Assembly (NCBI GenBank): GCA_014860745.1
Contig: JACZJC010000003.1
Span: 1 to 64,000, forward strand
Reading direction: 5' to 3'
DNA: 64,000 nt
Source of the DNA: Anaerolineales bacterium
Lineage (GTDB): Bacteria; Chloroflexota; Anaerolineae; Anaerolineales; Villigracilaceae
Within the stretch, counting starts at the first letter, position 1. Each line of letters begins with the position of its first letter. Of the stretch, positions 5,097-61,298 are shown piece by piece. The position numbers were made by a program, and so were the translations under genes. The notes beneath the pieces were generated by a model, which saw nothing but the letters and a program-made list of their open reading frames with translations, had not been told where the DNA came from and did not search any database.

Positions 5097-6820
5097 CCTC
5101 TCTTCTTCAACCAATCCGTCAATTTCTTCGGCGTCCAGGTATTGATCACATCCTTCGGCTCCAGCCAGGCGCGGCGGGCAATGGCAACGCCGTAATGAAG
5201 GAAATCAAGGTCGCTTTCGGAATGCGCATCGGTATTGATGCTGAGGAGGACACCCAACTCTTTCGCGCGGCGGGCAGGCGCATCGTCCAGATCGAGGCGG
5301 GAGGGTTGGGCACTGATCTCCATTACCACACCCGATTCGGCCGCAGCCTTCAGAATCACCTCCATATCCAAATCCGCCGCTTCGCGGTCTGGAAGTTCAC
5401 GCCCCGTCGGATGACCGATGATATCCACGTGCGGATTTCTAACAGCCTTCAACAATCGCTCGGTGATCTTCTCGCGCGGCTGACGCAAACTGGAATGCAG
5501 CGAGGCAATCACCAGATCAAGCGAAGCAAGGAACTTGTCGGGATAATCCAACGAGCCATCGGCTTTAATTTCCACTTCGCTGGCGTGCAACACAAGGATT
5601 TCATCGCCAAGCTGTTTTTGAATCTTTTTGATTTCAGCAGCCTGTGCTTTATGCCGTTCCATCGACAAACCATTCGCAACCCCCAACCCAACGGAATGGT
5701 CTGTGAATGCAATCGCTTTAAGTCCGCGCTTTGCGGCGGCGCGCGCCATATCCAGCATACTTAATTTTCCATCGCTGTGGGTGGAGTGCATGTGCAAATC
5801 GGTTTTGATATCTTTACTTTGAATCAACCTCGGAAGCTTATTTGCTTTTGCCGCAATCACTTCGCCGTGATCTTCGCGCAATTCAGGCGGGATCCACGGC
5901 AGGCCCAGGGTTTTATAAACTTCCTCTTCCGTAGCACACAGAATTTCACCCCTGCCTTTTGTCTTTGTCAACGAATGTTCGGATAAAGACAACCCTTTAT
6001 CCAATGCAATTTGACGCAGGGCAACGTTATGATCTTTCGAGCCCGTTGCATATTGCAGCGCCGTGCCAAACTTTTCAGGCGGATGCACCCACAACTGCGC
6101 GCGCACACCGTCCATGAATTCGATGCTGGCTTTCGTCTCGCCTTTCCCTAAAACACGGCTCACGCCTTTAAGGTTGACAAAGGCATCCATCACTGAAGAT
6201 GAATCTTTTGCCGCCACCAAAATATCCAAGTCGCCGACGGTGGAACGCATCCTTCTTAAACTGCCGGCTGGTTCTGCCGCGACGACTCCCTTCACCTTTT
6301 TGAGTTGAGCAATGATCTCCTGCGCCAGCGGATACGCGCGCCCGAGCGGCAGCCTCCCCGACCTGCGGGCAAGGGATGCAATGCCTTCGAGAATCGCATT
6401 CTCAGACTTGGCGCCCATGCCGGGCAGGTCGCGCAGTTTTCCGTTTTTCGCGGCAGCTTCCAGGTCTGAAAGAGCCGTGATGTTCAACGCCTTCCAGATC
6501 AGCGCAATTTTTTTCGGTCCAAGCCCGGGCACTTGCAGCCATCCTGCCAGTTCCTCGGGAACTTCCTTTTTCAGGTTTTCCAAAAATTCAAGCTTACCTG
6601 TTTGAAGCAGCTCGTCGATCTTTTCGGCAATCGCCTTGCCCACACCGGGAATTTCACGAAGTTTTCCCTCCTTCCAATATTCGCTGGCTTCACGGCTGAG
6701 GGTCATTAAATTTTCGGAAGCCTTGCGATAGGCAAGCACAACATAAATGACCTCGCCCTTGATCTCACACAAATTGGCAATGAGGGTAAACGTATCGGCA
6801 AGTTGACGGTTGTTCATCAT
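5093..6820 (-). CDS. polX: DNA polymerase X family protein with PHP domain
   Basis: A 575-residue bacterial PolX used in base-excision and gap repair. Order of domains: N-terminal HhH/8-kDa region (EIPGVGKAIAEKIDELL, QVPGLGPKKIALIWKAL, LPGMGAKSENAIL), a pol-beta nucleotidyltransferase core with GSLRRMRSTVGDLDILV (GS plus DxD metal site), and a C-terminal PHP domain with 3'-exonuclease motifs (KTDLHMHSTHSDGK, AFTDHS, INTDAHSESDLDFL). Length matches B. subtilis PolX. Start: the ATG pair at 6820/6817 follows AAGGATTATTGTT; the longer frame from 6895 would run into the divergent glycosyltransferase promoter. It is first in an operon with the small membrane protein and prs. Confidence 0.93.
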   Translation of the reverse strand: MMNNRQLADTFTLIANLCEIKGEVIYVVLAYRKASENLMTLSREASEYWKEGKLREIPGVGKAIAEKIDELLQTGKLEFLENLKKEVPEELAGWLQVPGLGPKKIALIWKALNITALSDLEAAAKNGKLRDLPGMGAKSENAILEGIASLARRSGRLPLGRAYPLAQEIIAQLKKVKGVVAAEPAGSLRRMRSTVGDLDILVAAKDSSSVMDAFVNLKGVSRVLGKGETKASIEFMDGVRAQLWVHPPEKFGTALQYATGSKDHNVALRQIALDKGLSLSEHSLTKTKGRGEILCATEEEVYKTLGLPWIPPELREDHGEVIAAKANKLPRLIQSKDIKTDLHMHSTHSDGKLSMLDMARAAAKRGLKAIAFTDHSVGLGVANGLSMERHKAQAAEIKKIQKQLGDEILVLHASEVEIKADGSLDYPDKFLASLDLVIASLHSSLRQPREKITERLLKAVRNPHVDIIGHPTGRELPDREAADLDMEVILKAAAESGVVMEISAQPSRLDLDDAPARRAKELGVLLSINTDAHSESDLDFLHYGVAIARRAWLEPKDVINTWTPKKLTDWLKKRG

Positions 6821-6884
6821 AACAATAATCCTTTCGCGAATAGGCGGATTATACGCGCAAAATTTAGGTGATAAGATTAAGTTC

Positions 6885-8435
6885 ATGTACTCCATCCATC
6901 GTTACACAAAAACCATTCTGGCAATCTTCGTCATCATCAGCGCATTTTTGGGGGTTCTGCGATTTAACTCGCTCCAACTTGGCACGTCCTACGACGACGC
7001 GCATTACATCATCCTCGCCGAAAGCCTTTCGAGCGGACAGGGGTATCAGCTCATCAATTTTCCGCGTCCGCAGATCGAGCGCGCCTTCCCGCCCGGCTGG
7101 CCTGTTTTGCTCATGCCATGGGTTCGGCTCTTCCCCGGAAATTATGATCTCTTGAAGCTGTTTTCGCTCTTGCTGTGGCTGGCGTCCATTTTATTGATCT
7201 ACAAACTTTTCTCCAAACGGATCGAATCTCCGCAGCTTGAGATCGTCACCGGCCTGGCTGCAATTAACCCCCTGCTGGTTGGGACGTCCGTGACCGTGAT
7301 GTCTGAATCCGCATATTTATTCTTCTCCCTGCTTGCATTGATCGTATTCGACAAGTGGAATGAAACGGCCAACGGCAAGAAGGATTGGCTGGTCGTTCTG
7401 ATCGCAGTCCTTGCCATGTACACGCAGTTGATTCGAACCATCGGGGTTTCGCTGGTCATGGCCCTGCTGGTATATTTTCTACTCACGCGCCGCTTTCGCG
7501 AAGCGGGGATTACAACTGGCGTTTTTGTATCCGGCATACTCCTGCAAACATGGCTGAACCTCCGCAACGGCGGTTCGGTGGTTTCCGCGAGTTATGAAAC
7601 ACAGGTGTTCAACAGTTCCCTGCTCGATAAGATCGGGCAGATGGGTTCGAATGCCCTGGGATATTTCAACGAAATTCTGGTAGGCTCGTTGATTCCGATC
7701 TTCGGGTCGAAGGTCACGGCATATTTGGGGAGTCACGGTTTGGAAGCCCTGCCGGCGTTCGTCAATATCCTCATTTTATTTCTGGTGGTTGGGGGACTGG
7801 CGCTTTCCGGCAAAAAATTCCATGCTATGGATATTTATGTTGCGATTTATTTCCTTGGAATTTTGGCGTTTTGGAATCCAAAGGTTGGCAGCGTGAAGGC
7901 GCGCTTTTTGATTCCGATCCTCCCCTTCCTTTATTTTTATTTGACGCGGGGAATGGCCTGGGCGGCGGCAAAGCTCGCTCGAAACAGAATCAACTTCGGC
8001 AGGCGAACCGAGGCGGTGCTGGTCGGCTTGATCGCTTTGGCTTTGCTGTCGCGTAATTTTCAGGATTGGCAAAACCCGGTCATGAATCAAATGACGGATC
8101 TCTCCATCGGCGCGAGCTGGGTGGCGGAGAATGCGCCGCCCGATGCCATCGTGATGGTGAACGAACCCATCCCCGCCTATGTGCAGGTAAAAAGAAAAAC
8201 CGTCAGCTTCCCCACTGCGGGACAGAATTTGGAAAGCTATTTGACCAACCGGGGGGTCGAATACATCATCGTTTCGCCAAGGCTTCAATCGCCGCGCAGC
8301 TACGAGCTGGACCCATTCATTGCTCAGCAAATTCTGCCCGCCCTTCAATCCGCCCCGGAAAAGTTTGTGGTCGTATTCGCGAACCCCGAAAATAATGTGG
8401 AGGTATATCGATACATCGGCGGGCAGCAGGAATGA
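6885..8435 (+). CDS. GT39/ArnT-type membrane glycosyltransferase
   Basis: A 516-residue polytopic protein of the Dol-P-Man:protein mannosyltransferase (GT39/GT83, GT-C fold) type, which uses polyprenyl-phosphate sugars outside the membrane. After TM1 comes the first luminal loop with the acidic pair LGTSYDDAHYIILAESL and RAFPPGWPVLL, as in ArnT-like enzymes. About ten more hydrophobic helices follow, then a soluble C-terminal tail of about 110 residues (SWVAENAPPDAIVMVNEP...). No Shine-Dalgarno is visible before ATG 6885, but TAAGAT lies 7 nt upstream, compatible with a leaderless transcript. It is divergent from polX. The acceptor is unknown. Confidence 0.82.
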   Translation: MYSIHRYTKTILAIFVIISAFLGVLRFNSLQLGTSYDDAHYIILAESLSSGQGYQLINFPRPQIERAFPPGWPVLLMPWVRLFPGNYDLLKLFSLLLWLASILLIYKLFSKRIESPQLEIVTGLAAINPLLVGTSVTVMSESAYLFFSLLALIVFDKWNETANGKKDWLVVLIAVLAMYTQLIRTIGVSLVMALLVYFLLTRRFREAGITTGVFVSGILLQTWLNLRNGGSVVSASYETQVFNSSLLDKIGQMGSNALGYFNEILVGSLIPIFGSKVTAYLGSHGLEALPAFVNILILFLVVGGLALSGKKFHAMDIYVAIYFLGILAFWNPKVGSVKARFLIPILPFLYFYLTRGMAWAAAKLARNRINFGRRTEAVLVGLIALALLSRNFQDWQNPVMNQMTDLSIGASWVAENAPPDAIVMVNEPIPAYVQVKRKTVSFPTAGQNLESYLTNRGVEYIIVSPRLQSPRSYELDPFIAQQILPALQSAPEKFVVVFANPENNVEVYRYIGGQQE

Positions 8436-8484: not shown

Positions 8485-9699
8485 ATGGCACCTGGCGAAT
8501 CATCTGAAAAAAATCCCATCGGCAAATCCCTCCCCAACATCGGACAAGAAACGTACGCCTCCATCCCGACCGAGGAACTGGTCGTGTTCGCCGTCCAGTT
8601 TTTACACGCGGATGGAGTTCCCGCCACAACGGAGGAGGTGGTTTCCGCCTGCTTCAAGTTGTTCCCGCACCGCTTTTCGTTGAAGAATTATTTCTACTGG
8701 CCCGACTCGGCCCAGGTGACGAGTCATTTGAACCGCGCAAAAGAAAAGGGATATATCAAAGAGACTCCCGCGGACGGATTCAAAGTGAAGGTGGTGGGAA
8801 GACCGGTTGCAAAACAGGTTGCAAAGACCCTGGGGCTTCCCATGCCGATGCCGCCGAAAGTAGAGAAACCAAAGCCAGTTGAACCTGCAATTCCGCAAGT
8901 GAAAGTGCCGTCCCTTTCAACGGAAGAGAAATCCATTGCGGTTGTGGAAAAAAAGAAGCCAGCCAAAAAGAAAAGAGTGACTGTTAAAAAGAAGGTTGCA
9001 AAACCTGCAAAGAAGTCCATCCGCAGAATGGCAAAACCTGTAAAAAAGACTGTCACACCTAAAAAGGTCCTTGCCAAAAAAGCGAAACCGAAAAAGACAG
9101 TGGTTACCCGCCCTGCTCCTGCGAAGCCGAAGACTGCCCCCAAGCTAAAACCAAAAGTTAAGGCGAAGAAAGCAGTTCCGACAGCTGCCCCTAAAAAGAT
9201 AAAGCCGGTTCAGAAGCAGAAAAAACAGGTAAAACAAAAAGCGAAAAAAGCGCAGACCGCGCATCAATTGCCTCTCCTGATGCCGGCCAGGCCGAAGCCA
9301 GCCAAAAAGACCGCTGCGGCGAAACCCGCCAAACCGAAAATTGCGAAAGCGGAAAAAACCAGAGCAGCCGAAAAGATTCACACTCCCGTTGTGCCCTCTA
9401 TATCGAAGGAAGAGAAGATCAAAGCGGGGAAGGCCGTTCACACCCTGGAACGCTCGGATGCCTATCGTCAATATCAGAAATTCGGCGGGAAGGCGAGAAT
9501 CAGCGAGTTCGATTTCAGGAACATGCTTTTCGCCACGATGGAATCTTCGGCAGAGACCTTGAAGAGGAACGTGGACCTGTTCCGGCGGTATGCGGGCATC
9601 CACAACCGCGCGGACCTGATCACCTTCCTTGATTTTGCCGAGGGAAGTTTTGCGCCTTTATTGAAAACCCAGGCAAGGCATCCGCTAAAAAAGAGATAA
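8485..9699 (+). CDS. histone H1-like Lys/Ala/Pro-rich protein with N-terminal winged-helix-like region
   Basis: A 404-residue three-part protein. Residues about 22-110 look like a winged helix (IPTEELVVFAVQFLHADGVPATTEEVVSACFKLFPHRF...VTSHLNRAKEKGYIKET). Residues about 150-310 are a disordered, strongly basic KKPAKKKR/KPAKK/AKKAKPKK tail like histone H1 or AlgP. The last 95 residues form a second folded domain (RSDAYRQYQKFGGKARISEFDFRNMLFATMESSAETLKRNVDLFRRYA). It probably coats or bridges DNA. It ends 12 nt before a GHKL ATPase gene and the two are almost certainly co-transcribed. A TATAAT lies at 8442-8447. No named family is recognised for the whole. Confidence 0.8.
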   Translation: MAPGESSEKNPIGKSLPNIGQETYASIPTEELVVFAVQFLHADGVPATTEEVVSACFKLFPHRFSLKNYFYWPDSAQVTSHLNRAKEKGYIKETPADGFKVKVVGRPVAKQVAKTLGLPMPMPPKVEKPKPVEPAIPQVKVPSLSTEEKSIAVVEKKKPAKKKRVTVKKKVAKPAKKSIRRMAKPVKKTVTPKKVLAKKAKPKKTVVTRPAPAKPKTAPKLKPKVKAKKAVPTAAPKKIKPVQKQKKQVKQKAKKAQTAHQLPLLMPARPKPAKKTAAAKPAKPKIAKAEKTRAAEKIHTPVVPSISKEEKIKAGKAVHTLERSDAYRQYQKFGGKARISEFDFRNMLFATMESSAETLKRNVDLFRRYAGIHNRADLITFLDFAEGSFAPLLKTQARHPLKKR

Positions 9700-9711
9700 C
9701 GAAGGATTTAT

Positions 9712-11592
9712 ATGGTAAGCAGCAGGAAGTTACAGTACGCCGACCGCGTGGCGATCCAGCAGGCGGACCAGGCGATCCGCAAGGATGTGATGCGCGCACT
9801 GGTGGAGATCATCACCAACGCGAACGACAGCTATTCGCGCCTCGAGCAGGCGGGCGGCAAGTCGAGCGGCGAGATCTCCATCGAGGTTCATCGCAAACAC
9901 AAGAATTCCACCATCCGCGTGCGGGATTTTGCCGAAGGCATGACCGACAAACGCATGGACAAGGTCGTCGGCACGTACGGCGAGGCAACCAGCGGCTTGA
10001 AGGAAGACCAGCGCGTGCGCGGCATGTGGGGGCGCGGGTTGAAGGATTCCATCTTTGGGCTGGGCTATGGGCATGTGCGTTCGTTCAAGGGAAATAACTT
10101 TTATTCATGCTCCCTGCTCCTTAAAAACGGAATCCCAACCTTCGAACTGGATGACCCCGTGTATGCGACGGCGGCTTTGAGGGAAAAGCACGGCTTCCCT
10201 GCGGGGAACGGGTCGTTGATCGAGATCATCGTCTCTCGTGACGATGTGAAAATGCCGCAGTATAGCAACCTGCGTAATTATTTGCAAAGGCATTTCGAAC
10301 TGCGCCCGATCATGAGCAACCCAAACCGCAAAATCATTTTGCTGGACAGCGCGTCGAAGGGGAAAATTCGTCAGGAAACCGAACTCAGCTACAAGTCACC
10401 GCGAGGCGAAAAAGTGCTGGAGGAGAAACTCTCCATCGAGGGCTATCCCGCCGAGGCGAGTCTCGAAGTCTACCGGTCGAACATCCAATTATCGACAAGA
10501 AGCGAAGAGGGCGATTATGCCGACGGCGGCCTGCTGGTCATCAGCAGGGATATTGTCATCTCGCTGACCATGCTCAAGTGCGAGAACGACCCGTATGCGG
10601 GTTATTTCTACGGCTCGATCCAATGCGATTATTTGCACGACCTGTTGAAGAATGACGAACCTGTGCTGACCGCCACCCGCGACGGCATCAACTGGTCGCA
10701 TCCATTTGCGAAGGCGCTGAAGCTGGCCGTGGAATCCAAACTCGAGCCGCTCATTCAAGCCGAGCGCGAACATGCCATCCACGACGAACAGACGAAGCTG
10801 GATAAAAAACTTCGCCGAAAACTCGACAAGGCGCTGCACGAATTGAACACGATCGCGCTCACCGAATTGCGCGAGCAACGCGATGGCGAGCCCCGCAGGA
10901 AGATCGAGCTGCCTGAATCGGGCATGGGATTTTTCCCCGAACGCATGTATGTGCAAACAGGCCAGTCCGCCACGCTGGTTTTGCGCGCCGCATTAGGCGA
11001 CAATGCGAGGGCGGGCGCAACGGCAAGCGTGATTTCGAGCAGCCCGGAAGTAAACATCATCACCCCGCAGGTGGTCCTCAAGCCGCATAAAAACGACCCA
11101 TCCATTTTGGAAGCGCGTGTAAAAGTGGAAGGCCGGCAGGTGGGCGGTGAAGGCACCGTAACGGCATACCTCGGCAGGAACCGCGCGCAGGCCATGGTGC
11201 AGGTTCATTCCAAAAAGGAGTCGATCCCCGCACCTCCGATGCGCGGAAGCAATGCCTTGTTCACCGACATCCGCTTCGACGACCGCACCGATCCGCGCCA
11301 GCGCGTCTATTACGACCGCGTCAATTCGAGCATCGTCATTGCAACCGCCGCGCCTTCGGTACGAATCTATCTGGATATAAACAACCGTCTCGACACCACC
11401 ATGCAGGGTCAGGTGTTACTGGCGGAACTTATCACCGAAGCTGTCTGCCGCGAGATTGCGCGTGAAGGCGTGGAAAAAGGACGCTTCCTTGTGCTGGAAG
11501 GCGCGGAAGCGGACGCCATCCAAAACCATTTCATCCGCCTGCAAAACCGATATGCGCATTTGATCCATCAATACATTGTGACGAAGCAATAA
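9712..11592 (+). CDS. GHKL ATPase (MORC/Hsp90/MutL-like) with C-terminal Ig-like region
   Basis: A 626-residue protein. The Bergerat ATP-binding fold is at residues about 20-130: N-box EIITNANDSY, G1-box VRDFAEGMTDKRM, and G2/lid GTYGEATSGL...RGMWGRGLKDSIFGLG. A transducer-like region follows (residues about 190-330), then a coiled-coil-like charged helix (EREHAIHDEQTKLDKKLRRKLDKALHEL). A beta-rich Ig-like segment (residues about 425-500) and a conserved-looking C-terminus complete it. It lacks a HisKA box, so it is not a sensor kinase. The nearest architectures are the MORC-type GHKL ATPases linked with DNA manipulation or defence. The ATG follows AAGGATTTAT. It pairs with the H1-like gene upstream and ends at a strong terminator. 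Confidence 0.8.
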   Translation: MVSSRKLQYADRVAIQQADQAIRKDVMRALVEIITNANDSYSRLEQAGGKSSGEISIEVHRKHKNSTIRVRDFAEGMTDKRMDKVVGTYGEATSGLKEDQRVRGMWGRGLKDSIFGLGYGHVRSFKGNNFYSCSLLLKNGIPTFELDDPVYATAALREKHGFPAGNGSLIEIIVSRDDVKMPQYSNLRNYLQRHFELRPIMSNPNRKIILLDSASKGKIRQETELSYKSPRGEKVLEEKLSIEGYPAEASLEVYRSNIQLSTRSEEGDYADGGLLVISRDIVISLTMLKCENDPYAGYFYGSIQCDYLHDLLKNDEPVLTATRDGINWSHPFAKALKLAVESKLEPLIQAEREHAIHDEQTKLDKKLRRKLDKALHELNTIALTELREQRDGEPRRKIELPESGMGFFPERMYVQTGQSATLVLRAALGDNARAGATASVISSSPEVNIITPQVVLKPHKNDPSILEARVKVEGRQVGGEGTVTAYLGRNRAQAMVQVHSKKESIPAPPMRGSNALFTDIRFDDRTDPRQRVYYDRVNSSIVIATAAPSVRIYLDINNRLDTTMQGQVLLAELITEAVCREIAREGVEKGRFLVLEGAEADAIQNHFIRLQNRYAHLIHQYIVTKQ

Positions 11593-11620
11593 AAAAAGGA
11601 CACGCCGTGTCCTTTTTTTA
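11591..11620. terminator. bidirectional rho-independent terminator
   Basis: A perfect GGACAC/GTGTCC stem (11598-11612, loop GCC) is flanked by seven A on the left and seven T on the right. It separates the plus-strand GHKL gene from the convergent minus-strand transporter. Confidence 0.88.
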
Positions 11621-11626
11621 TTGCTA

Positions 11627-12061
11627 TTATTTTACAGCCAGCCATACGCCCAGCATGACCACACAAAGGCCGATGATTCGCGGCGGGTCGATGGCGCGCT
11701 GGGCGACTCCCATCCAGCCGAAGTGATCCAGAATCGAGCCGACGAAAAGCTGACCCGCCAGCAGGGTGATCAATGCGCCTGCGACGCCGATGCGGGGAAT
11801 CATATAACTCATTGAAGAGATGACGACCAGGCCGAATGTTCCCGCTCCCAGCGCATACCAGGGGACGCTTCGCCAATCGCCGAGCCTGCTGCCAAAAACG
11901 AGGAGCGGAATCATGGCTGCCGCCGCTCCGCCCGCATGGACGATGAAAATGCTTTCCCAGACTCCCATGCGCTGGCTGAGCATGCTCGCCATCGGGCTTT
12001 GCAAACCGATCGCCATCCCGCCGACAAGGCCGATCAGGACAATAAAGAAAATAGGCTGCAT
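11627..12061 (-). CDS. DMT-superfamily small transporter (DUF606/YdcZ type)
   Basis: A 144-residue, almost wholly hydrophobic protein with about five predicted TM helices. It begins with FFIVLIGLVGGMAIGLQSPMASMLSQRMGVWESIFIVHAGGAAA, the glycine-rich first repeat typical of DUF606/YdcZ proteins, and ends RIIGLCVVMLGVWLAVK. Length fits that family (about 140-150). The substrate is unknown. The ATG at 12061 follows AAAGGAAAACGA. It converges on the GHKL gene and shares the bidirectional terminator. Confidence 0.8.
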   Translation of the reverse strand: MQPIFFIVLIGLVGGMAIGLQSPMASMLSQRMGVWESIFIVHAGGAAAAMIPLLVFGSRLGDWRSVPWYALGAGTFGLVVISSMSYMIPRIGVAGALITLLAGQLFVGSILDHFGWMGVAQRAIDPPRIIGLCVVMLGVWLAVK

Positions 12062-12174
12062 TCGTTTTCCTTTGTTCCAAGATTTTGTGATGATACTTGA
12101 TTCGCTTTAGGTTAAGATTGCAGGTTGTTTACAAGCATGTCGTTCTTCCCTTGCGCTCAAAGCGACAGAGCGGC

Positions 12175-12843
12175 CTATGCAGAAAACTGAACCAGCACTC
12201 CCGAGATCAAGGCGATCTGTCCGAGGTGGTAGGCGGCGATATTGTAGATGCGCCCATGCTGAATGGGAGCGACGAATTTATTCCAGGCGAGGATGATATC
12301 CGAGATGTAGAACAGAAACGCGCCCACACTGACCAAAGCCGCCGCGCCTGCATCCCAGGAAATATCGGTCAGTTTTATCATTGCAGAGAGCAGCATGATG
12401 GAGATCACGAAGCTGTAGATAATGATCGGGGCGCGCATCCGTCCCTGCCCAGCGGCAGGCAGACGGTCCAGAATGCGGCGAATGATCCGCGCCCCGCCCA
12501 GGCCGATGATGACGGCGAAAACGATCCCGAAGAAATTCATCCCCGGCAAGGGGGTGTTGAATCCGATTATGTAAGCGATATGCGCCAGTAAAAATGACGC
12601 CAGCCCGGCAAGGAAGAGGCGGTCGAGTGAGATCATCAAGAGCACATCACCGACTAGGGATAGCAGAATTCCCAGCCCGAACCATAATAAGGCCCCGCCC
12701 AGCCCGGCGGAAGTCCATAGCCAGAGGAAGAGGGCGATCATTACCCCGGGCTTGGCAAAGACTTCGAGTTTGAACCAGTTTTTCTGCAAGGCCAGCGCTT
12801 CCAGCGCGGCAAAGACGAACGCGGCGATCAAAAAGATTATCAT
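12175..12843 (-). CDS. YhhN/TMEM86 family membrane protein (lysoplasmalogenase-like)
   Basis: A 222-residue protein with about eight TM helices. It shows the YhhN family pattern: LLSLVGDVLLMISLDRLFLAGLASFLLAHIAYIIGF, with the family's conserved GD and AHxxY, then FYISDIILAWNKFV. The start at 12843 is chosen because GGGAGG lies 6 nt upstream and the resulting length matches YhhN (about 208-225). In-frame ATGs at 12870 and 12876 have poor ribosome sites, and the frame further upstream runs into a repeat element. Eukaryotic TMEM86 hydrolyses lysoplasmalogen; the bacterial activity is inferred only. Confidence 0.83.
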   Translation of the reverse strand: MIIFLIAAFVFAALEALALQKNWFKLEVFAKPGVMIALFLWLWTSAGLGGALLWFGLGILLSLVGDVLLMISLDRLFLAGLASFLLAHIAYIIGFNTPLPGMNFFGIVFAVIIGLGGARIIRRILDRLPAAGQGRMRAPIIIYSFVISIMLLSAMIKLTDISWDAGAAALVSVGAFLFYISDIILAWNKFVAPIQHGRIYNIAAYHLGQIALISGVLVQFSA

Positions 12844-12883
12844 GAGAGCCTCCCATCCATATCGTATCATAATCATTTCTTTA

Positions 12884-13097
12884 ATATGCCGCTGCAAGTC
12901 ATCCGCCGAAGCAGCCTCATCAATGGGGGAGATTGCTTCGGATGTGCACGCAAACCATGTCAGGTAGTTTGCTCTCCGCGCCGTCCCCGGCGCAGGATTC
13001 CCTCGCAAAACGCCGCCGGTGACGGCGGCTTGAGCGTTAGCCGCTGACAACCTTTGCGTGCACATTGCTTCGGGAAGAGCACCTTCGCAATGACATA
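12884..13097. repeat. palindromic dispersed repeat interrupted by a second element
   Basis: The outer parts (12884-12941 and 13074-13097) match the roughly 100-bp palindromic repeat found at 20630-20727, 21043-21136 and 33000-33100. That repeat has a TGTCGxTGCGAG-like end, GAAGCA...CTCATTAAC...GGGGATTGCTTCG, and CGCAAYGACAT at the far end. The middle is displaced by the element at 12943-13064. Confidence 0.7.
12943..13064. mobile_element. 122-bp MITE-like element with 21-bp terminal inverted repeats
   Basis: The ends are inverted repeats matching at 18 of 21 positions (both begin TGTGCACGCAAA and share TGTCAG further in). The 9-mer TTGCTTCGG lies directly on both sides (12933-12941 and 13065-13073), like a target-site duplication. 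The interior holds further GC-rich hairpins and no ORF. Removing one 9-mer plus the element restores the surrounding palindromic repeat. Confidence 0.65.
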
Positions 13098-13115
13098 GAA
13101 TGCTATACTTCGGTC

Positions 13116-13520
13116 ATGGCAGCGAAAAACGTATACCTCAATTGGAATCCTGAAACAGAATTCACCCTGAGCGACTCGGACGGTCACCAAATCGCAATGA
13201 AGAAGCCAAGGGGTGTCAGCCCTTCGGACCTGCTGCCGATGGCGCTGATCGGATGCACGTCGCATGATGTGGTGGAGATTTTGAAGAAACAGCGTCAGGA
13301 ACTGATACAGCTCAAAGTGACGGCAGAAGCGGAGCAGGATGAGACTCCGCCGTGGCGGTTTCGTAAAATCCACATCCGTTATCAGGCGATCGGCAGGGGA
13401 ATTGAAATTGAAAAACTACGCAAGGCGATCGAGATCAGCGAGGAAAAATATTGCTCGGTCTATGCCACGTTGAAGGACGTGATCGAGATCACGCACGAAG
13501 CGGAAGTAATCGAAGCGTAA
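13116..13520 (+). CDS. OsmC/Ohr family protein
   Basis: A 134-residue protein of the OsmC fold. It has the family's central motif SPSDLLPMALIGCTSHDVVEIL, carrying the first redox cysteine, and a later KYCSVYATL segment carrying the second. Together these suggest a thiol-dependent hydroperoxide-reducing enzyme. The frame could extend back to 13065, but the ATG at 13116 gives the normal family length and starts before the MAAKNVYLNW strand. There is no Shine-Dalgarno; TATACT ends 6 nt before the ATG, which suggests a leaderless mRNA. The gene lies just downstream of the nested repeat elements. Confidence 0.85.
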   Translation: MAAKNVYLNWNPETEFTLSDSDGHQIAMKKPRGVSPSDLLPMALIGCTSHDVVEILKKQRQELIQLKVTAEAEQDETPPWRFRKIHIRYQAIGRGIEIEKLRKAIEISEEKYCSVYATLKDVIEITHEAEVIEA

Positions 13521-13560
13521 CCAAAAACACTGGGACATGCATCCCAGTGTTCTCTCGTTA
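13521..13560. repeat. TA-cassette hairpin repeat, copy 1
   Basis: An AACACTGGGA/TCCCAGTGTT perfect 10-bp stem with loop CATGCA, flanked by CAAA and CTCTCGTTA. On the minus strand the stem is followed by TTTTTGG, so it can terminate the HEPN/MNT transcript, whose stop is 4 nt away. Confidence 0.85.
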
Positions 13561-13563
13561 TTC

Positions 13564-13947
13564 CTACTTGTCTTTCAAATAGTTCTGCGCAGCCAGCATA
13601 AACTCACGCGCCTGATTGATCATGGTTGCCACAATTTCATCTTCGATTCCCGTGTCAACTCCATAATCACCCGTAATTCTCTTATCAAATCCGTCACGCA
13701 TCCAGCGGTGGAATTTGGGGTCAAGGACCTTTGTCTTCGCAAAGTTCTTTCCATATGCCGCAATGACCTGACCATGCTGGCTGAATTTCAAATCGAATTC
13801 ATTGTACAGCAACGCCTCAGCGACATAGAACATCGCATAATAGGCTCTACCCGCCGCAATCTCTGCTTTATTGATATTCAACAAGGCGTCAGCCGCTTCT
13901 ATAGCATCCAATGCCTTGCTAAACAATTTACTGGAATAGTCCTTCAT
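13564..13947 (-). CDS. HEPN domain protein, partner of MNT nucleotidyltransferase
   Basis: A 127-residue all-helical HEPN protein. The recognisable core is AGRAYYAMFYVAEALLYNEFDLKFSQHGQVI, followed by FHRWMRDGFDKRITGDYG and a long C-terminal helix. HEPN proteins beside MNT nucleotidyltransferases are usually the toxin (often an RNase) of an abundant toxin-antitoxin class. The classical RxxxxxH RNase motif is not obvious here, so activity is uncertain. The start overlaps the stop of the MNT gene by 4 nt. It is bounded by hairpin copies 1 and 2. Confidence 0.82.
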   Translation of the reverse strand: MKDYSSKLFSKALDAIEAADALLNINKAEIAAGRAYYAMFYVAEALLYNEFDLKFSQHGQVIAAYGKNFAKTKVLDPKFHRWMRDGFDKRITGDYGVDTGIEDEIVATMINQAREFMLAAQNYLKDK

Positions 13948-14282
13948 GCAGGCAGCCCCTCTTTGCGGATGTTGTAAATGAGCGGTCTTTCATTGCTGGC
14001 GGTTTCCCATTGGATTTCTTTGACGAAGATACAGCTCACTGTGACGTCATACTCTAAAGAGACATCGCTTGCCAACTGGCTGATCTTGCTTTGCTCTTTC
14101 CAGTAATTTTTGTAGTTCTTCAGCAGAATCATCACGTCCACATCCGAGCCTGGACGGGAATCTCCGCGCGCATAGGAACCGTACAAATAGACGGCTTTGA
14201 GCTTATCCCCATATATGCGGACAAGCCCTTCCTTAAACTCTTTCATGAGTCTGCGTATCTTTGCAGGGACTTTCGCTTTCAT
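13944..14282 (-). CDS. MNT-type nucleotidyltransferase (antitoxin partner)
   Basis: A 112-residue minimal nucleotidyltransferase. The catalytic motif is complete: VYLYGSYARGDSRPGSDVDVMILL (GSxxR...SDxDV). In MNT-HEPN modules this protein neutralises the HEPN toxin, in studied cases by AMPylating it. It is upstream of and overlaps the HEPN gene (ATGA). TAAAAT lies 6 nt before the ATG at 14282, and an AAGG is also present. The N-terminus is basic (MKAKVPAKIRRLMKEFKEGL). Confidence 0.85.
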   Translation of the reverse strand: MKAKVPAKIRRLMKEFKEGLVRIYGDKLKAVYLYGSYARGDSRPGSDVDVMILLKNYKNYWKEQSKISQLASDVSLEYDVTVSCIFVKEIQWETASNERPLIYNIRKEGLPA

Positions 14283-14370: not shown

Positions 14371-14805
14371 TCACACCTCAAAATCGCCAATCCATACTGC
14401 CCAATCAACCGCGTTCGCCAGCGGAGCATCCGCAGTCACTAATGGGAGTGCCAATCGGCGGGCAAGGGCGGCATAACAAGCGTCATAAGCGGTCAGATTT
14501 TTCTCACTGGCAAATTCAAGTGCATCTTCGATCAATTCAGATGTGGAAGTGGATTTCAATGCCAGGTCATTCAAATCTTTGATGTCTTTCAACGAATCTT
14601 CCAGAGGACGGTTAAAACGACGGGTGTATTTGAGCAGGATATTGGCACATTCAATATAAAACAGGTCAGGGACGTGGATTTCTGCCTGTGGGTCTTCAGC
14701 AAGTTTGGAAAAAAGCCGCTGAACCTTGTCGGAGAATTCCTCCTCAACAAAAAGTTTTATGCCAACGCTGGCATCCAAAACACAGCGCAGCAGGACTTCG
14801 CTCAT
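14371..14805 (-). CDS. PIN-domain toxin, VapC/FitB-like
   Basis: A 144-residue PIN ribonuclease. The acidic active-site residues are all visible: D in CVLDASVGIKLF, E in DLFYIECANILL, D in LTAYDACYAALARRL and D in LVTADAPLANAV. VapC-type toxins cleave specific RNAs such as tRNA or rRNA. It overlaps the stop of its ribbon-helix-helix-like antitoxin gene by 4 nt (antitoxin first), the standard VapBC/FitAB order. It is flanked by hairpin copies 2 and 3. Confidence 0.88.
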   Translation of the reverse strand: MSEVLLRCVLDASVGIKLFVEEEFSDKVQRLFSKLAEDPQAEIHVPDLFYIECANILLKYTRRFNRPLEDSLKDIKDLNDLALKSTSTSELIEDALEFASEKNLTAYDACYAALARRLALPLVTADAPLANAVDWAVWIGDFEV

Positions 14806-15044
14806 CGCGACCTGTCTTCCTTCAATAATTCAAGAGAGGTGGGCGCATTCTTGGGAGGCGTGAAGCGGCGACGGCGAATCGAATTCAATGTCTTCGCTTG
14901 TTTTTTGCGCCGCTCCTCATCCTCGATCGCCTGCGTCAGCATGATAATGACCTGGGCGCTCAAAGAGCGATTTTTTGATTGGGCCAATTTTTGCAGCCGT
15001 GCGTACAAATCATCAGACACACTGCGAACGTGAAGAATATTCAT
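14802..15044 (-). CDS. FitA-like ribbon-helix-helix antitoxin
   Basis: An 80-residue antitoxin. The N-terminus (MNILHVRSVSDDLYARLQKLAQSKNRSLSAQVIIMLTQAIEDEER) is a FitA/Arc-type ribbon-helix-helix. The basic, proline-containing C-terminus (RRRRFTPPKNAPTSLELLKEDRSR) is the likely toxin-wrapping tail. Such antitoxins bind their own promoter with the toxin. A matching dyad overlaps the -35 upstream. AAGGAAG lies before the ATG at 15044. Confidence 0.85.
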   Translation of the reverse strand: MNILHVRSVSDDLYARLQKLAQSKNRSLSAQVIIMLTQAIEDEERRKKQAKTLNSIRRRRFTPPKNAPTSLELLKEDRSR

Positions 15045-15238: not shown

Positions 15239-15493
15239 ATGCCCAAAATCGCAGACATCATTACGGAAATGAAGCGCAACCCGAGGGGAATCCGCTTTCA
15301 GGATCTCTGCAAAGTTTGTGAGCATTATTTTGGAGATGCGCGTCAGTCAGGGAGCAGTCACAGAGTGTACAAAACTCCCTGGCAAGGCGACCCGCGTGTG
15401 AACATTCAAAATGACAAGGGCATGGCGAAAGCCTATCAAGTTAAGCAGGTGTTAAAAGCGATTGAACGGCTGGAGGAAGAAAAAAATGCTTAA
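15239..15493 (+). CDS. hicA: HicA-type toxin
   Basis: An 84-residue mRNA interferase-type toxin of the HicA (YcfA) double-stranded RNA-binding-like fold. The active-site histidine is in GSSHRVYKTPW, followed by VNIQNDKGMAKAYQVKQVLKAIERL, the usual HicA second half. It is slightly longer than the shortest HicA proteins but normal for this subgroup. It is followed by HicB with an 8-nt overlap, giving the toxin-first order typical of hicAB. Its start appears leaderless. Confidence 0.88.
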   Translation: MPKIADIITEMKRNPRGIRFQDLCKVCEHYFGDARQSGSSHRVYKTPWQGDPRVNIQNDKGMAKAYQVKQVLKAIERLEEEKNA

Positions 15494-15821
15494 AAATGAC
15501 CGCTACACATATCGTATCACTTGGTCTGAAGACGATCAGGAATATGCGGGGTTATGTATTGAGTTTCCCAGCCTAAGTTGGTTGGACGAAAACCCCGAAG
15601 CCGCGCTATCTGGCATTCGTCAGGTCGTTGCGGATGTGGTGAAGGATATGAAATCAAACGGTGAGACTCCGCCTGAACCGCTTGCCAGCAAGCACTTTAG
15701 CGGAAAGTTCATGGTGCGCATCCCACCTGAATTACACCGCAAACTCGCCATTGAAGCGCAGGAGGAAGGCATTAGCCTCAACCGCCTTGCAGCCGATAAA
15801 CTTAGAAAGCAAGACGCATAG
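15486..15821 (+). CDS. hicB: HicB-type antitoxin
   Basis: A 111-residue antitoxin. The N-terminal partial RNase H-like HicB domain reads YTYRITWSEDDQEYAGLCIEFPSLSWLDENPEAALSGIRQVVADVV. The C-terminal DNA-binding segment FMVRIPPELHRKLAIEAQEEGISLNRLAADKL is a ribbon-helix-helix. The start at 15486, inside the hicA end, gives the family's normal length. It is followed by a strong terminator and then hairpin copy 4. Confidence 0.9.
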   Translation: MLKNDRYTYRITWSEDDQEYAGLCIEFPSLSWLDENPEAALSGIRQVVADVVKDMKSNGETPPEPLASKHFSGKFMVRIPPELHRKLAIEAQEEGISLNRLAADKLRKQDA

Positions 15822-16119: not shown

Positions 16120-16893
16120 TCATCCGATATTGACCCCGACCAACAAAATCAAGAACGCCTTTATCCCGCAAAAACTGTGCTGACGTATCTTCGCCTTTAC
16201 ATTGTTATTCGATGGATGTTTGGCTTTCAAATAACCTTCAAAAGCATAAACGTCATCCAGCGAAAATTCTTCCGTTTTGATTTTCTCCACGCACATCAGA
16301 ACATCCAACAGCCAGCCCTTTGACTCGACGCTCTGCGTGGCTTTGACAAAATCGGTTTTGCTCCACTTTTCGAGCACCTCATCTTTGCTTTTAGGGACGC
16401 CGTTTTGGACAAAGAAGATTTTCCCAATCTCAGGAATATTGCTCACGTCAATATTGCAGCCGACCCAGCCCGCCCGTCTCGCGGTGGGACTCAGCGCCTT
16501 GCGCTTCTCAATGATCGTAGGGACAAAGAAGTACTTCGGGATGGTCAGGAAGTTCCGTATCTCCAGCGTGGACTTGTCGTATGTCAGAAAAAAGAAATTC
16601 GGGTTGTTATCTGCTTGCAGACGTTGAATCATGGTGGAATATGCCCCGTCCACGATTTTCTTGCCCATTGCCCCGCTTTTTGATTTCAATTCATATTCTT
16701 CCGAGCAGTGACCACAATAAAAATCAGCGACGGGCGCATTATTCTCGAAGCGACTTAACCCATTCCCGCAATTCGGACAAAAACCAGACCGATTCACCCA
16801 TCCTTCCGTCATCACTCGGATTTTTTGAGTTGAACTAGTGTAAGTGGCAAAAGACTCAAAACCAAGATTTAAATCAGTCAATGATTTACTCAT
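16120..16893 (-). CDS. dpnI: DpnI-like methyl-directed restriction endonuclease, C-terminal frameshift
   Basis: A 257-residue protein closely following DpnI, which cuts Gm6ATC. The Zn-binding Cys pairs (FCPNCGN, FYCGHCSEE) surround the PD-ExK core (VADFYC...EYELKSKSG), followed by DGAYSTMIQRLQADNNPNFFFLTY and PTARRAGWVGCNIDVS. Homology holds to KIRQ near residue 238, then the frame reads HSFCGIKAFLILLVGVNIG. A neighbouring frame in the same DNA reads QFLRDKGVLDFVGRGQYR, which is DpnI-like, and ends at TAA 16105-16103. So a small indel near 16171-16184 has replaced the end of the C-terminal winged helix that reads methylated DNA. It is either a real mutation or a sequencing/assembly error. Its start overlaps the PIN-like gene by 8 nt. 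Confidence 0.88.
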   Translation of the reverse strand: MSKSLTDLNLGFESFATYTSSTQKIRVMTEGWVNRSGFCPNCGNGLSRFENNAPVADFYCGHCSEEYELKSKSGAMGKKIVDGAYSTMIQRLQADNNPNFFFLTYDKSTLEIRNFLTIPKYFFVPTIIEKRKALSPTARRAGWVGCNIDVSNIPEIGKIFFVQNGVPKSKDEVLEKWSKTDFVKATQSVESKGWLLDVLMCVEKIKTEEFSLDDVYAFEGYLKAKHPSNNNVKAKIRQHSFCGIKAFLILLVGVNIG

Positions 16894-17353
16894 ACTTCAA
16901 GTCTTCGGGTCTTTTAACTGCTATTGCCTTGAAACCCGGGAATAGATTTACATCTTGCACGAACTTATCATCAATACTTATTGCGTACTTTCTTTTTGAT
17001 AACATTACAACAGGAATATGATCATGATCTTGCCAGTTTGATTTAAGTTTTCGGCAATTCTTCTTTGTTAAGTAGGTGGTTCTAAAATCTTTTATTTGGT
17101 CATTTGTTATTCTGTTTAATCTACCCTGCCTAGTACACATATCAATAATCGCAACAATTGAGTTATCCGACATGCTTGAACCGCATGTTCGGTGATACTC
17201 TACAATGATTTTCTTCGAAATCACTAGGTGCGCATTATCGGACTTTCTTACTTCGTCACAATGCATTAACCATGAGACCAACTTTTTGTACTCGAGGTCT
17301 AACGGGTTTATAAAATTCTTCGCAACATTGTTGTCAATAAAAATATCTTTCAT
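16886..17353 (-). CDS. PIN-like domain protein beside DUF3696 ATPase
   Basis: A 155-residue protein with a PIN-like layout. The N-terminal strand carries an Asp (MKDIFIDNNVAKNFI), a middle Glu lies in IISKKIIVEYHR-like sequence, and the C-terminal DHDHIPVVMLSKRKYAISIDDKFVQDVN resembles the D...TxD end of PIN nucleases. It is not a typical VapC, being longer and lacking an RHH partner. It lies 18 nt downstream of a DUF3696-type ATPase and overlaps the DpnI-like gene by 8 nt. AT-rich, unlike the flanking housekeeping genes. The likely role is the nuclease effector of the ATPase; the assignment rests on weak motifs. Confidence 0.6.
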   Translation of the reverse strand: MKDIFIDNNVAKNFINPLDLEYKKLVSWLMHCDEVRKSDNAHLVISKKIIVEYHRTCGSSMSDNSIVAIIDMCTRQGRLNRITNDQIKDFRTTYLTKKNCRKLKSNWQDHDHIPVVMLSKRKYAISIDDKFVQDVNLFPGFKAIAVKRPEDLKYE

Positions 17354-17371
17354 AGCATACCCCTTAAGAAT

Positions 17372-18757
17372 CTATTCTGCATGAAGAGCGATATCCATAA
17401 CATCCATCATATATGTCTCAAAAAAGCCTTTGGGGGCATTTTTGATTTGACCATCTTTACTGAATTCAATAGAGTATTTGGTTGTACCTGTACTGGTGTT
17501 TTCAAAATAGTAAACAGCAACATCTTCAGCAGCAATCTCACCTTTAGTAATCAAAAGGCGAAGTCTATTGAGAAAATACTCGCTATGTGTCTCAATAATG
17601 TATCTTTTTTCTTTGCTCTTGACTTGTCTTGAAAAATAATCAGCCAATTTTGCTTGAACGTTTGGATGTAGGTGTATTTCTGGTTGAGCCACGAGCAACG
17701 TTGAACCTTTAGGTAACTGCCTGTCTGCTACAAGTATGGGAAGAAACTGACTAATACCAAACCCTACATCAGCAATCGACACTATAGGTCCTTCAGGCTT
17801 TGCTTGCACTCTAAGTTCAAACCTTCCCCCATCTAATTTTTTAATATCAACCCCGTTTAGCAAATCCAAGCTGCGCAAATCGGCTATCAAACCCTTATAA
17901 GTCACTGATTTGTTTTCGTACCATCTTAAGATTTGATCAATGTAATTCTCGCCGTAACCGCCAACTTTGTAATCAGACTTTGTCATCTGATAGTAAGTTC
18001 TTTCTGGGAACAAACGAAAAGAATTGATAAAGCCTAAATGCCTTTCAATTTCGCTAAAGCGTCGTTGTACGTCATTTATTGATCTTGAAGCGCTAGACAA
18101 GTTCTTTTTTCTCAAAGTCAAGAATAAATCTTCGATTCTTTTTATTTTCAGGTTTTTAACATCGTCAATGTTTAGAAACGCATCTATTGCTGATATCTCG
18201 GTCTTTTTCTTTCTATTAGAACCTTTTTTTTCTTTTTCTTCTTTATCGATAATTTTCCCGATATCTTCCAGGAAACCAGCTAAGGCTTTGTTCATCTCAA
18301 AGTCTTTACTTCCAAGATATTCTTCTTTATTTAAATGTTGAAGGTTAAAGACGTATTCACCTGCTTTGATATGAATTTTCAGATTATATTTTTGCGTTAC
18401 ACACTCTAAAGAATAGAGCTTTGGTTGCTGGTTTTTAGGATTGATAATCCACGTTGTAAGTACCTCTATCTGTTCGTGTTTGTCATCCTCATCTGTTTCT
18501 ATGACATAATCCAGACTGACCTTGTTGGACTTTAAATTATTATGTGAAATCTCTTTAAAATCGCCCATATTTACATACTTCCCATTTGGTGAGTATGTGA
18601 TTGGAAACCCTTCTGATTGCAAAGGCGACAAGATACTGTAAAGCAGAGAACTTTTTCCACTACTATTTCCACCAGTTAGCACGGTAATTTTCTTAAAGTC
18701 AATATCAACTTCTTTAAAACACTTAAAGTTCTTCAGAGAAATTTTCTTGATTTTCAT
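17372..18757 (-). CDS. AAA/ABC-type ATPase with DUF3696-like C-terminus
   Basis: A 461-residue SMC/RecF/OLD-like ATPase. Walker A is TVLTGGNSSGKSSLLYSIL at residue about 30. A long coiled, lysine-rich insertion follows (DKEEKEKKGSNRKKKTE, DVQRRFSEIERHL), then FGISQFLPILVA, the Walker B/D-loop segment LLVAQPEIHLHPNVQAKLADYF, the H-switch RYIIETHSEYFLNRLR, and a DUF3696-like end (NAPKGFFETYMMDVMDIA). There is no TOPRIM nuclease domain, so it is not a full OLD protein. The ATG at 18757 follows CAGGAG. It is first gene of the ATPase/PIN/DpnI operon, with its own promoter. AT-rich, probably acquired. Confidence 0.85.
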   Translation of the reverse strand: MKIKKISLKNFKCFKEVDIDFKKITVLTGGNSSGKSSLLYSILSPLQSEGFPITYSPNGKYVNMGDFKEISHNNLKSNKVSLDYVIETDEDDKHEQIEVLTTWIINPKNQQPKLYSLECVTQKYNLKIHIKAGEYVFNLQHLNKEEYLGSKDFEMNKALAGFLEDIGKIIDKEEKEKKGSNRKKKTEISAIDAFLNIDDVKNLKIKRIEDLFLTLRKKNLSSASRSINDVQRRFSEIERHLGFINSFRLFPERTYYQMTKSDYKVGGYGENYIDQILRWYENKSVTYKGLIADLRSLDLLNGVDIKKLDGGRFELRVQAKPEGPIVSIADVGFGISQFLPILVADRQLPKGSTLLVAQPEIHLHPNVQAKLADYFSRQVKSKEKRYIIETHSEYFLNRLRLLITKGEIAAEDVAVYYFENTSTGTTKYSIEFSKDGQIKNAPKGFFETYMMDVMDIALHAE

Positions 18758-18777
18758 ACCGCACTCCTGCAACGCAA

Positions 18778-61241: not shown

Positions 61242-61298
61242 AACAAAAGTTCTATTTTAGTGATAAAATCGAATTGTCTCTATTTCTCGGAGGAGAAA

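Follow-up and report, generated by a model that had tools for sequence, protein, structure and literature searches.

A paraMORC-like GHKL ATPase and its predicted DNA-binding partner form an exchangeable two-gene unit in Anaerolineales

Introduction

In 2008 it was proposed that prokaryotic relatives of the MORC ATPases act in restriction systems by manipulating DNA superstructure. The available text of that study (Iyer, Abhiman and Aravind 2008, PMC2292703) defines MORC proper by a GhXhhpXXRhl motif in the S5 domain, gives the authors' name paraMORC to proteins that combine GHKL and S5 domains and lack this motif, and reports paraMORCs in restriction-modification operons. In eukaryotes, MORC2 is presented as a DNA clamp in the available text of PMC12216690. 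The present analysis concerns a GHKL ATPase gene and the partner gene upstream of it in a 64,000-nt stretch of an Anaerolineales bacterium (Chloroflexota; Villigracilaceae; assembly GCA_014860745.1, contig JACZJC010000003.1, positions 1 to 64,000), hereafter the window. A preliminary description, made from the DNA letters, had read the two genes as a histone-H1-like protein paired with a MORC-type ATPase in a chromatin-like or genome-defence machine, an interpretation that is partly supported here.

The explanation tentatively favoured below, from sequences and structure models, is that the pair is exchangeable and encodes a paraMORC-like DNA clamp, gated by ATP and served by a DNA-binding adapter of its own, and that the system is probably of defence type. 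A literature search at abstract level returned no description of such a partner-ATPase pair in the abstracts covered.

Results

The pair is a conserved unit

The two genes lie on the same strand 12 nt apart, a 404-aa basic protein followed by a 626-residue ATPase, with the coordinates originally given for them (Table 1). The unit ends, as also proposed, at one terminator with a 19-pair stem and a T tail; the region holds 9 terminator-like sites, against 6.1 (standard deviation 2.5) in shuffled sequence, so the call rests on the long stem.

The ATPase was found in 28 of 61 genomes, comprising 28 of the 37 from the window's genus and none of the 24 from other genera of the order. The partner was found in 29, namely the same 28 and G033, in which only its first part is present at a contig end. 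This conservation excludes chance as the source of the reading frames. In an even sample of 400 genomes from the phylum, the ATPase occurred in 9 of the 11 listed members of the genus, in one of the 14 listed from the family's other genera (G122) and in five more distant genomes. A second collection of 47 loci, which overlaps the first in that some genomes occur in both, included 45 with the partner upstream on the same strand (L092 with only the start of the ATPase); the exceptions were L091, which begins at a contig edge, and L084. The preliminary description had held that its reading would fail if the genes rarely occurred together; the partner accompanies the ATPase in all 28 ATPase-bearing genomes of the 61 and in 13 of 17 distant loci. 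ATPases of the close group are 73-87% identical, and both genes are interrupted in G017.

The window's assembly (4.3 Mb, 82 contigs, contamination 3.58%) contains a second locus, L031 (G000:C74:4001-24000), in which the genes are ordered as in the window. The L031 ATPase shares 98.4% identity with the one encoded by L013, a locus of another genome; for these two reasons the idea of a paralogue was dropped, and L031 is more likely a contaminating contig from a sister species.

The pair is absent or exchanged at its chromosomal site

Among 48 distinct loci, at least one of the window's flank genes lies on the matching side in 39, and both do in 26. Neither is present in the other nine, which include L083 and L084, several of the remainder being on short contigs. 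The pair occupies more than one site: three loci that lack the window's flank genes (L039, L060 and L063) have in common a different upstream context, with a response regulator-like gene and a large sensor-like one.

Two genomes of 98% completeness each, G016 and G008, have neither ATPase nor partner, and in both the mannosyltransferase frame lies directly next to the DMT frame. The region is rearranged or the contig short in four other genomes without the ATPase (G007, G019, G035 and G002). The PolX-like gene is kept in seven of the nine genus genomes that lack the ATPase; no full PolX was found in G022 and G028.

Median identity was 78% for the ATPase (23 loci) and 84% for PolX (16 loci). 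Across the 16 loci, ATPase identity did not track PolX identity (rho 0.18, p 0.51), which led to tests for exchange on trees of the window and 14 of the 16 PolX loci (L070 and L072 left out), with 13 other loci in the mannosyltransferase and partner trees and 12 in the DMT tree. The PolX tree placed the window with L031, L055 and L059 (support 100/99) and rejected its grouping with L032, L033 and L047 (approximately unbiased (AU) test, p 1.7e-9). The ATPase tree placed it with L032, L033 and L047 (100/99) and rejected the grouping with L031, L055 and L059 (p 5.8e-9). The mannosyltransferase tree sided with PolX (99/99) and rejected the ATPase grouping (p 2.1e-4), which the DMT tree also rejected (p 2.6e-3). 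The partner tree rejected the flank grouping (p 1.2e-3) and placed the window with L032 and L033 (100/99), joined by L047 only at 35/12. Along the DNA, identity flipped on the left in the 8.4-8.7 kb bin for L032 and L033 and not until about 9.6 kb for L047, and on the right between 11.4 and 11.7 kb, relative to loci that align poorly there. A second case of exchange involved L081 and L036 (PolX p 3.6e-4, ATPase p 1.1e-10). Such a pattern could also arise from a chimeric assembly, but two breaks at the ends of the pair would be needed. At the window's site the pair thus appears, from these sequence comparisons, to have been exchanged without its flanks and lost as one unit.

The ATPase combines GHKL and S5-like domains

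The ATPase matched Pfam HATPase_c_3 above cut-off (26.4 against 25 bits, E 7.9e-6), a family found in 26 of 29 ATPase family members at E 0.1. Matches below cut-off were HATPase_c (21.1 of 26.4 bits), the NCBIfam family HtpG (E 0.053) and DcuS kinase (E 0.073), and NCBIfam gave nothing above cut-off for the window pair. The Bergerat residues E32, N36, D39, D72, G76, R103, G104, G109 and K111 are invariant in an alignment of 11 rows reaching down to 22% identity, and the conserved N box, G1 and G2 make the protein a member of GHKL. In the structure model an S5-like transducer with a conserved basic residue follows, the arrangement of the GHKL and S5 module, and R323 may be the finger of this transducer. 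The proposed Bergerat-fold ATPase without kinase motifs is therefore borne out. No sensor histidine kinase family, in which a DHp His-box accompanies HATPase_c, was above cut-off in Pfam or NCBIfam, nor in Pfam among the 29 members; the profile search that had been suggested as a check for an ordinary signalling protein accordingly found none.

The model was built from 29 sequences (pLDDT 81.4, pTM 0.57). VIA-align matched residues 8 to about 360 with Hsp90, MORC2, MORC3, MORC4, SMCHD1 and the topoisomerase VI B subunit at Z 18.4-20.4 among the 50 matches listed, differences in Z of less than 1 being ties. The 11 listed MORC matches had a root-mean-square deviation (rmsd) of 3.6-4.3 Å over 290-311 residues, and ten of them lay below every other listed match. 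The Ig-like stretch is doubled, as a second profile match, in L110, L113, L116/L124, L144, L145 and L148. With its GHKL domain, S5 transducer bearing an invariant arginine, long helix, Ig-like spacer and helical C-terminal domain, the ATPase is predicted to be active.

The partner has two folded domains and a variable basic linker

The partner had been described as a lysine-tailed protein with two folded ends. The folded domains stand; the lysine-rich stretch is an internal linker between them, not a tail. The length of this middle part, taken as the distance between two fixed motifs relative to the shortest of 45 orthologues (L078), ranges from 0 to 372 aa, with 184 aa in the window. It is at most 27 aa in 9 of the 45, in which the linker is nearly gone, and in orthologues of 210-253 aa both folded domains are almost joined. 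Longer linkers (at least 64 aa, 37 of 46) contain 22-38% K+R and 2-10% D+E. Median identity is 32% in the linker (18 loci) against 55% and 64% in the domain ends (23 loci). The basic stretch is unlikely to be an essential part, because its length varies by up to 372 aa and it is nearly missing in 9 of 45 orthologues.

The AlphaFold2 model of the compact orthologue L076 (17 sequences, pLDDT 83.6, about 90 in the N-terminal domain, pTM 0.48) matched winged-helix chains at VIA-align Z 8.2-10.3 over model residues 11-122 among the 50 matches listed, including F-93, AF1382, MntR, DtxR and the MukF N-terminal domain. Foldseek with this model gave nothing below E 0.001 (best 0.017, MntR). A five-helix C-terminal domain follows the winged helix and is barely covered by the listed VIA-align matches. 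Pfam found no family for the window partner at E 1 and nine weak families among 17 orthologues, linker histone not among them.

The winged helix is also the globular fold of histone H1, and what the partner has in common with H1 and bacterial H1-like proteins is the class of fold and the Lys/Ala/Pro composition. Unlike in H1, its basic stretch is internal, varies greatly in length and is followed by a second conserved helical domain, and no family matches. Its H1-like appearance comes from an expansion between the conserved domains, and membership in histone H1 was rejected, given the lack of a linker-histone family even among weak matches and the near loss of the stretch in some orthologues. 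Searches of solved-structure sequences with the partner profile, the ATPase and the ATPase profile gave nothing convincing; the best match was ribosomal eS8 to the lysine-rich stretch (E 0.012), and a pesticin match (E 0.44) was likewise dismissed.

Distant relatives and their neighbours

Across three classes of the phylum, profile searches matched 5 of 177, 2 of 110 and 6 of 197 genomes, some of which also belong to the 400-genome sample; in the phylum to which L083 belongs they matched 2 of 288, including the genome of L083 itself. The 13 distant loci with the partner upstream of the ATPase are L083, L110-L113, L116, L123, L144-L148 and L150; the genes overlap by 4 nt in L110, L112 and L144, and the ATPase is interrupted by a stop in L146 and truncated in L150. 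In the other four, L084 has no partner, L114 and L149 hold ATPase fragments only, and the contig of L151 begins inside the gene. A 76-aa frame in L114 (4807-5037) matches only the ATPase C-terminal helical domain (E 2e-14) and may be a remnant.

A third gene upstream of the partner matches HARE-HTH just under the Pfam cut-off in L110, L144 and L150 (E 9.2e-5 to 4.2e-4), and a profile of it also finds it in L112, L145 and L113 (E 2e-30 to 6e-17), giving six of the 13 distant pairs. The L145 copy has no Pfam match, and in near loci the profile found nothing better than E 0.049. The corresponding position is taken in L148 by an Mrr_N protein above cut-off and in L123 by a protein without an assigned family. 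In two of the 13 distant pairs, L113 and L123, an N6_N4 DNA methylase gene faces the ATPase gene in convergent orientation. The Pfam scan covered ten chosen proteins, so other distant neighbours may have been missed. PADLOC gave only generic matches for these neighbours, namely the SEC-C motif, type II methyltransferases and LmuB (E 0.007). The HARE-HTH-like, Mrr_N or methylase neighbours of some distant relatives would fit the genome-defence setting suggested at the outset; around the window pair and its synteny group, no restriction-modification gene was recognised by eye.

In L144 a SEC-C gene (5319-7364, Pfam) overlaps the ATPase gene downstream, and in L112 a frame at 11164-13638 resembles it by eye; such a gene may be a fourth component in that class. 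Tyrosine recombinase-like neighbours in L110 and L150 and an IS21-like one in L144 were noted by eye. Four scans of viral contigs found one contig: a virus-like IMG/VR record of 129 kb (L116/L124) carries a diverged pair, with a 211-aa partner and a 740-aa ATPase.

Comparison with described systems

The MORC motif GhXhhpXXRhl, as defined in the available text of PMC2292703, was found in none of the 29 family members and none of the 11 aligned ATPases. A search of the window's genome with Pfam Morc6_S5 (PF17942) found nothing at E 1, and among 14 control genomes it gave weak matches, below cut-off, in three. These sequences do not support membership in MORC proper. The earlier label of MORC-type applies in the broader sense of a GHKL and S5 protein of MORC, Hsp90 or topoisomerase type, and does not extend to MORC proper. 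GHKL followed by S5 with the MORC motif missing is the composition of a paraMORC.

Going by the available text of the same paper, the ATPase resembles paraMORC families 1-5 in being a prokaryotic GHKL and S5 protein with a C-terminal extension and no MORC motif, and in having a methylase neighbour, here in two distant members. It differs from them in that no SFII helicase or nuclease was recognised by this pair, in its Ig-like and helical extension without a recognised nuclease or TIR, and in its constant upstream winged-helix partner and common chromosomal site in the window's lineage. The ExxxH of paraMORC2 at the end of S5 has no column common to at least 9 of the 11 rows, being scattered over 9 of 11 and 20 of 29 sequences. 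As for the domains of paraMORC3, 4 and 5, Pfam matches of the 29 members include no nuclease or TIR family, and HxH is not constant, as it occurs anywhere in just 4 of 11 and 17 of 29 sequences. The HEF_HK-type relatives in the available text of PMC8011034 share an N-terminal HATPase_c_3 and a link with restriction-modification; they mostly have HEF_HK and a second, C-terminal HATPase_c, and no HEF_HK match was among those listed here.

The fold of the ATPase module and the proposed clamp mechanism are shared with eukaryotic MORC2, MORC3 and MORC4, over about 300 residues; unlike these, no CW zinc finger is among the Pfam matches, and DNA binding is predicted to fall to a separate protein. SMCHD1 has a similar ATPase module (6mw7, Z 19.4, 4.6 Å over 313 residues) and, in the description available, a further region and then a C-terminal domain, which in SMCHD1 is an SMC hinge. 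The ATPase here is much shorter, and no SMC hinge family matched. The middle region of SMCHD1 is Ig-like. Hsp90/HtpG and the topoisomerase VI B subunit share the fold of the ATPase module, with no sequence family match above cut-off and a different genomic setting.

In the viral library BFVD, the best Foldseek matches were uncharacterised proteins of Hokovirus HKV1 and Yasminevirus (A0A1V0SGC9 and A0A5K0UA26; E 7.6e-28 and 9.3e-24, the next being 1.5e-12), with 731 and 771 columns aligned, well above RIIA and Hsp90 entries. Their domains match and their arrangement does not, given 15-16% identity, TM about 0.5 and an overall rmsd of 25-30 Å. Phage RIIA also has a GHKL fold with extra domains, and its matches (E about 1e-10 and weaker; PHROG RIIA E 0.049) are far weaker than those of the two giant-virus proteins.

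Other features of the window

Small toxin-antitoxin-like genes were recognised by eye at 13564-14282 (HEPN/MNT pair), 14371-15044 (VapBC-type) and 15239-15821 (HicAB-type). An AT-rich stretch at 16120-18772 (GC about 40% at 16-18 kb) holds an ATPase frame (17372-18772, GGNSSGKSS), and the adjoining frame 16886-17353 (155 aa, PIN-like start, by eye) may complete a small defence module. A low-GC patch (42%) at 60363-62024 holds two frames, by eye of TcmP type and of phage Gp37/DUF5131 type. As a possible target at the site of the pair, no tRNA gene was found in the window.

Table 1. Positions of the two-gene unit, its predicted domains and its flanks in the window
Feature	Start	End	Strand	Basis and remarks
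PolX-like DNA polymerase/PHP gene, left flank	5093	6895	-	named by eye; reference for flank tree
Membrane mannosyltransferase-like gene, left flank	6810	8435	+	GT39 by eye; synteny; outside exchanged cassette
Partner (adapter) gene	8485	9699	+	open reading frame, 404 aa; basic protein; in all 28 genomes with the ATPase
Partner N-terminal winged-helix domain (predicted)	8530	8838	+	about residues 16-118; AlphaFold2 model of compact orthologue L076
Partner Lys/Pro/Ala-rich linker	8839	9396	+	about residues 119-304; K 29%, P 16%, A 15%
Partner C-terminal helical domain, EFDFRNxLxxTMESS motif	9397	9669	+	two alignments; five helices in model
GHKL ATPase gene	9712	11592	+	open reading frame, 626 aa; Pfam HATPase_c_3
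GHKL (Bergerat) domain	9712	10320	+	about residues 1-203; N box E32/N36/D39, G1 D72/G76, G2 R103-G109/K111; invariant columns, model
S5-like transducer (predicted)	10324	10701	+	about residues 205-330; invariant R323 (11 rows), G325; model
Long helix (predicted)	10702	10869	+	residues 331-386 (56 residues); DSSP on model
Beta sandwich, read as Ig-like	10924	11208	+	residues 405-499; strands in model
ATPase C-terminal domain (predicted)	11254	11577	+	residues 515-622; short strands, two long helices; model; many invariant alignment columns
Intrinsic terminator of the two-gene unit	11585	11625	+	stem-loop, 19-pair stem, T tail
Small DMT-type transporter gene, right flank	11627	12061	-	named by eye

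Discussion

In the clamp explanation favoured here, the ATPase would act as a dimer whose heads close around DNA on ATP, by analogy with MORC2. The winged helix of the adapter may select or hold the DNA; in this clade the lysine-rich linker may help by tethering DNA flexibly and non-specifically, and the adapter C-terminal domain could dock on the ATPase. For the window's lineage, the pair would be an accessory cassette that can be replaced at a common site in the chromosome; some distant relatives may add to it a DNA-recognition protein of HARE-HTH or Mrr_N type and two a DNA methylase. Its purpose would most likely be to trap, compact or silence invading or unmodified DNA, with no obvious nuclease of its own, comparable to the paraMORC proposal in the available text of PMC2292703. 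A defence-type role is favoured over a histone-like one because the pair is replaceable and keeps HARE-HTH-like, Mrr_N and methylase company in some distant relatives.

Several observations weigh against this explanation. No PADLOC model (PADLOC-DB 2.0.0 of 2023, later systems lying outside its reach) matched the window genes at E 1 or five distant ATPases at E 0.01, and around the window pair and its synteny group no adjoining nuclease, methylase or helicase was recognised by eye, the neighbours being housekeeping-looking. The ATPases of the window, L110, L113 and L116 had no match in 72,556 plasmid records, nor those of the window and L116 in 50,697 phage records. The good conservation of the ATPase is not a typical arms-race profile, and together with the common site and the housekeeping-type neighbours in the genus it calls for caution. 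L084 has a complete ATPase with no partner within 13 kb. As for the exchange, the p values are post hoc, since the clades were named after the identities had been seen; the DMT tree does not reject the flank grouping or itself place the window there (p 0.12). The right-hand flip is the weaker one, as in L032 and L047 the DMT gene flanks the pair at its other end, and one YhhN bin gives no contrast. Ordinary homologous recombination could also account for exchange at a single site. In the ATPase model the orientation of the domains is uncertain (pTM 0.57) and residues 9-11, 17-19 and 104-107 are of low confidence, and the top Foldseek rank goes to an HtpG model (E 1.0e-11).

A bolder version of the clamp explanation is possible, if doubtful. 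The pair would be an undescribed immune or silencing system in which a MORC/SMCHD1-like, ATP-gated clamp, guided by the winged-helix adapter (and by a HARE-HTH protein in relatives), recognises foreign DNA and compacts it uncut, the cassette being swapped like restriction specificity and the full-length counterparts in giant viruses of protists linking it to eukaryotic chromatin machinery. The term HARE-HTH was not found in the available text of one literature set checked for it.

It is unlikely that the pair is instead a nucleoid or chromosome-organising factor, a housekeeping bacterial chromatin whose adapter would coat the DNA and whose ATPase would form loops in it or compact it. The H1-like linker composition, the strong conservation of the ATPase and the common site beside housekeeping-type genes would suit such a factor. 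A housekeeping role fits poorly with the absence of the ATPase from 9 of 37 genus genomes (one of them G033, with its cut-off partner), from all 24 genomes of other genera in the order and from all but one of the 14 listed from the family's other genera, with the clean empty site in two nearly complete genomes, with replacement as a cassette, and with orthologues that have nearly lost the linker.

Cassette exchange and clean absence would also suit a selfish or regulatory cassette that maintains or regulates only itself, as a toxin-antitoxin or an autoregulator whose ATPase acts on the adapter, and toxin-antitoxin-like genes adjoin the pair in L083 (AbrB/VapC-like, by eye) and lie 2-4 kb downstream of it in the window (by eye). 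This is improbable, as neither Pfam nor PADLOC recognised a toxin domain in either protein and no mobility gene was recognised by eye beside the pair in the genus.

More improbable still is an accessory role in DNA repair or recombination, with a MutL-like clamp working with the nearby PolX-family polymerase. The GHKL and S5 arrangement is also that of MutL, a PolX-like gene lies within the examined stretch in 21 of 48 loci, and one distant pair (L147) follows an Mfd-like gene (by eye). Against this, PolX is retained in most genus genomes that lack the ATPase and has a different tree, distant loci have no PolX relative at E 1e-3, and the MutL family is not among the Pfam matches.

The least probable explanation, an Hsp90-like chaperone with a substrate adapter or a signalling protein, draws on the place of HtpG/Hsp90 at the top of both structural lists (Z 20.4 against 20.0 for MORC3, a tie), on some Hsp90 matches that align 373-395 residues through the C-terminus at an rmsd of about 10 Å and on the weak NCBIfam HtpG match, and is opposed by the lack of any Hsp90 or kinase family above cut-off and by the winged-helix partner and the neighbours of the distant relatives, which point to DNA.

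The pair may be regarded as a compact, two-gene version of the prokaryotic MORC relatives whose predicted DNA-binding partner is constant. Genomes vary naturally at one site, carrying one cassette, another or none, and this could make the superstructure idea of 2008, as given in the available text of PMC2292703, directly testable. If the clamp explanation is true, the pair would offer a minimal model for ATP-driven DNA holding by the silencing ATPases of eukaryotes, MORC2 and SMCHD1 among them, and a lead to the prokaryotic or viral ancestry of those eukaryotic proteins.

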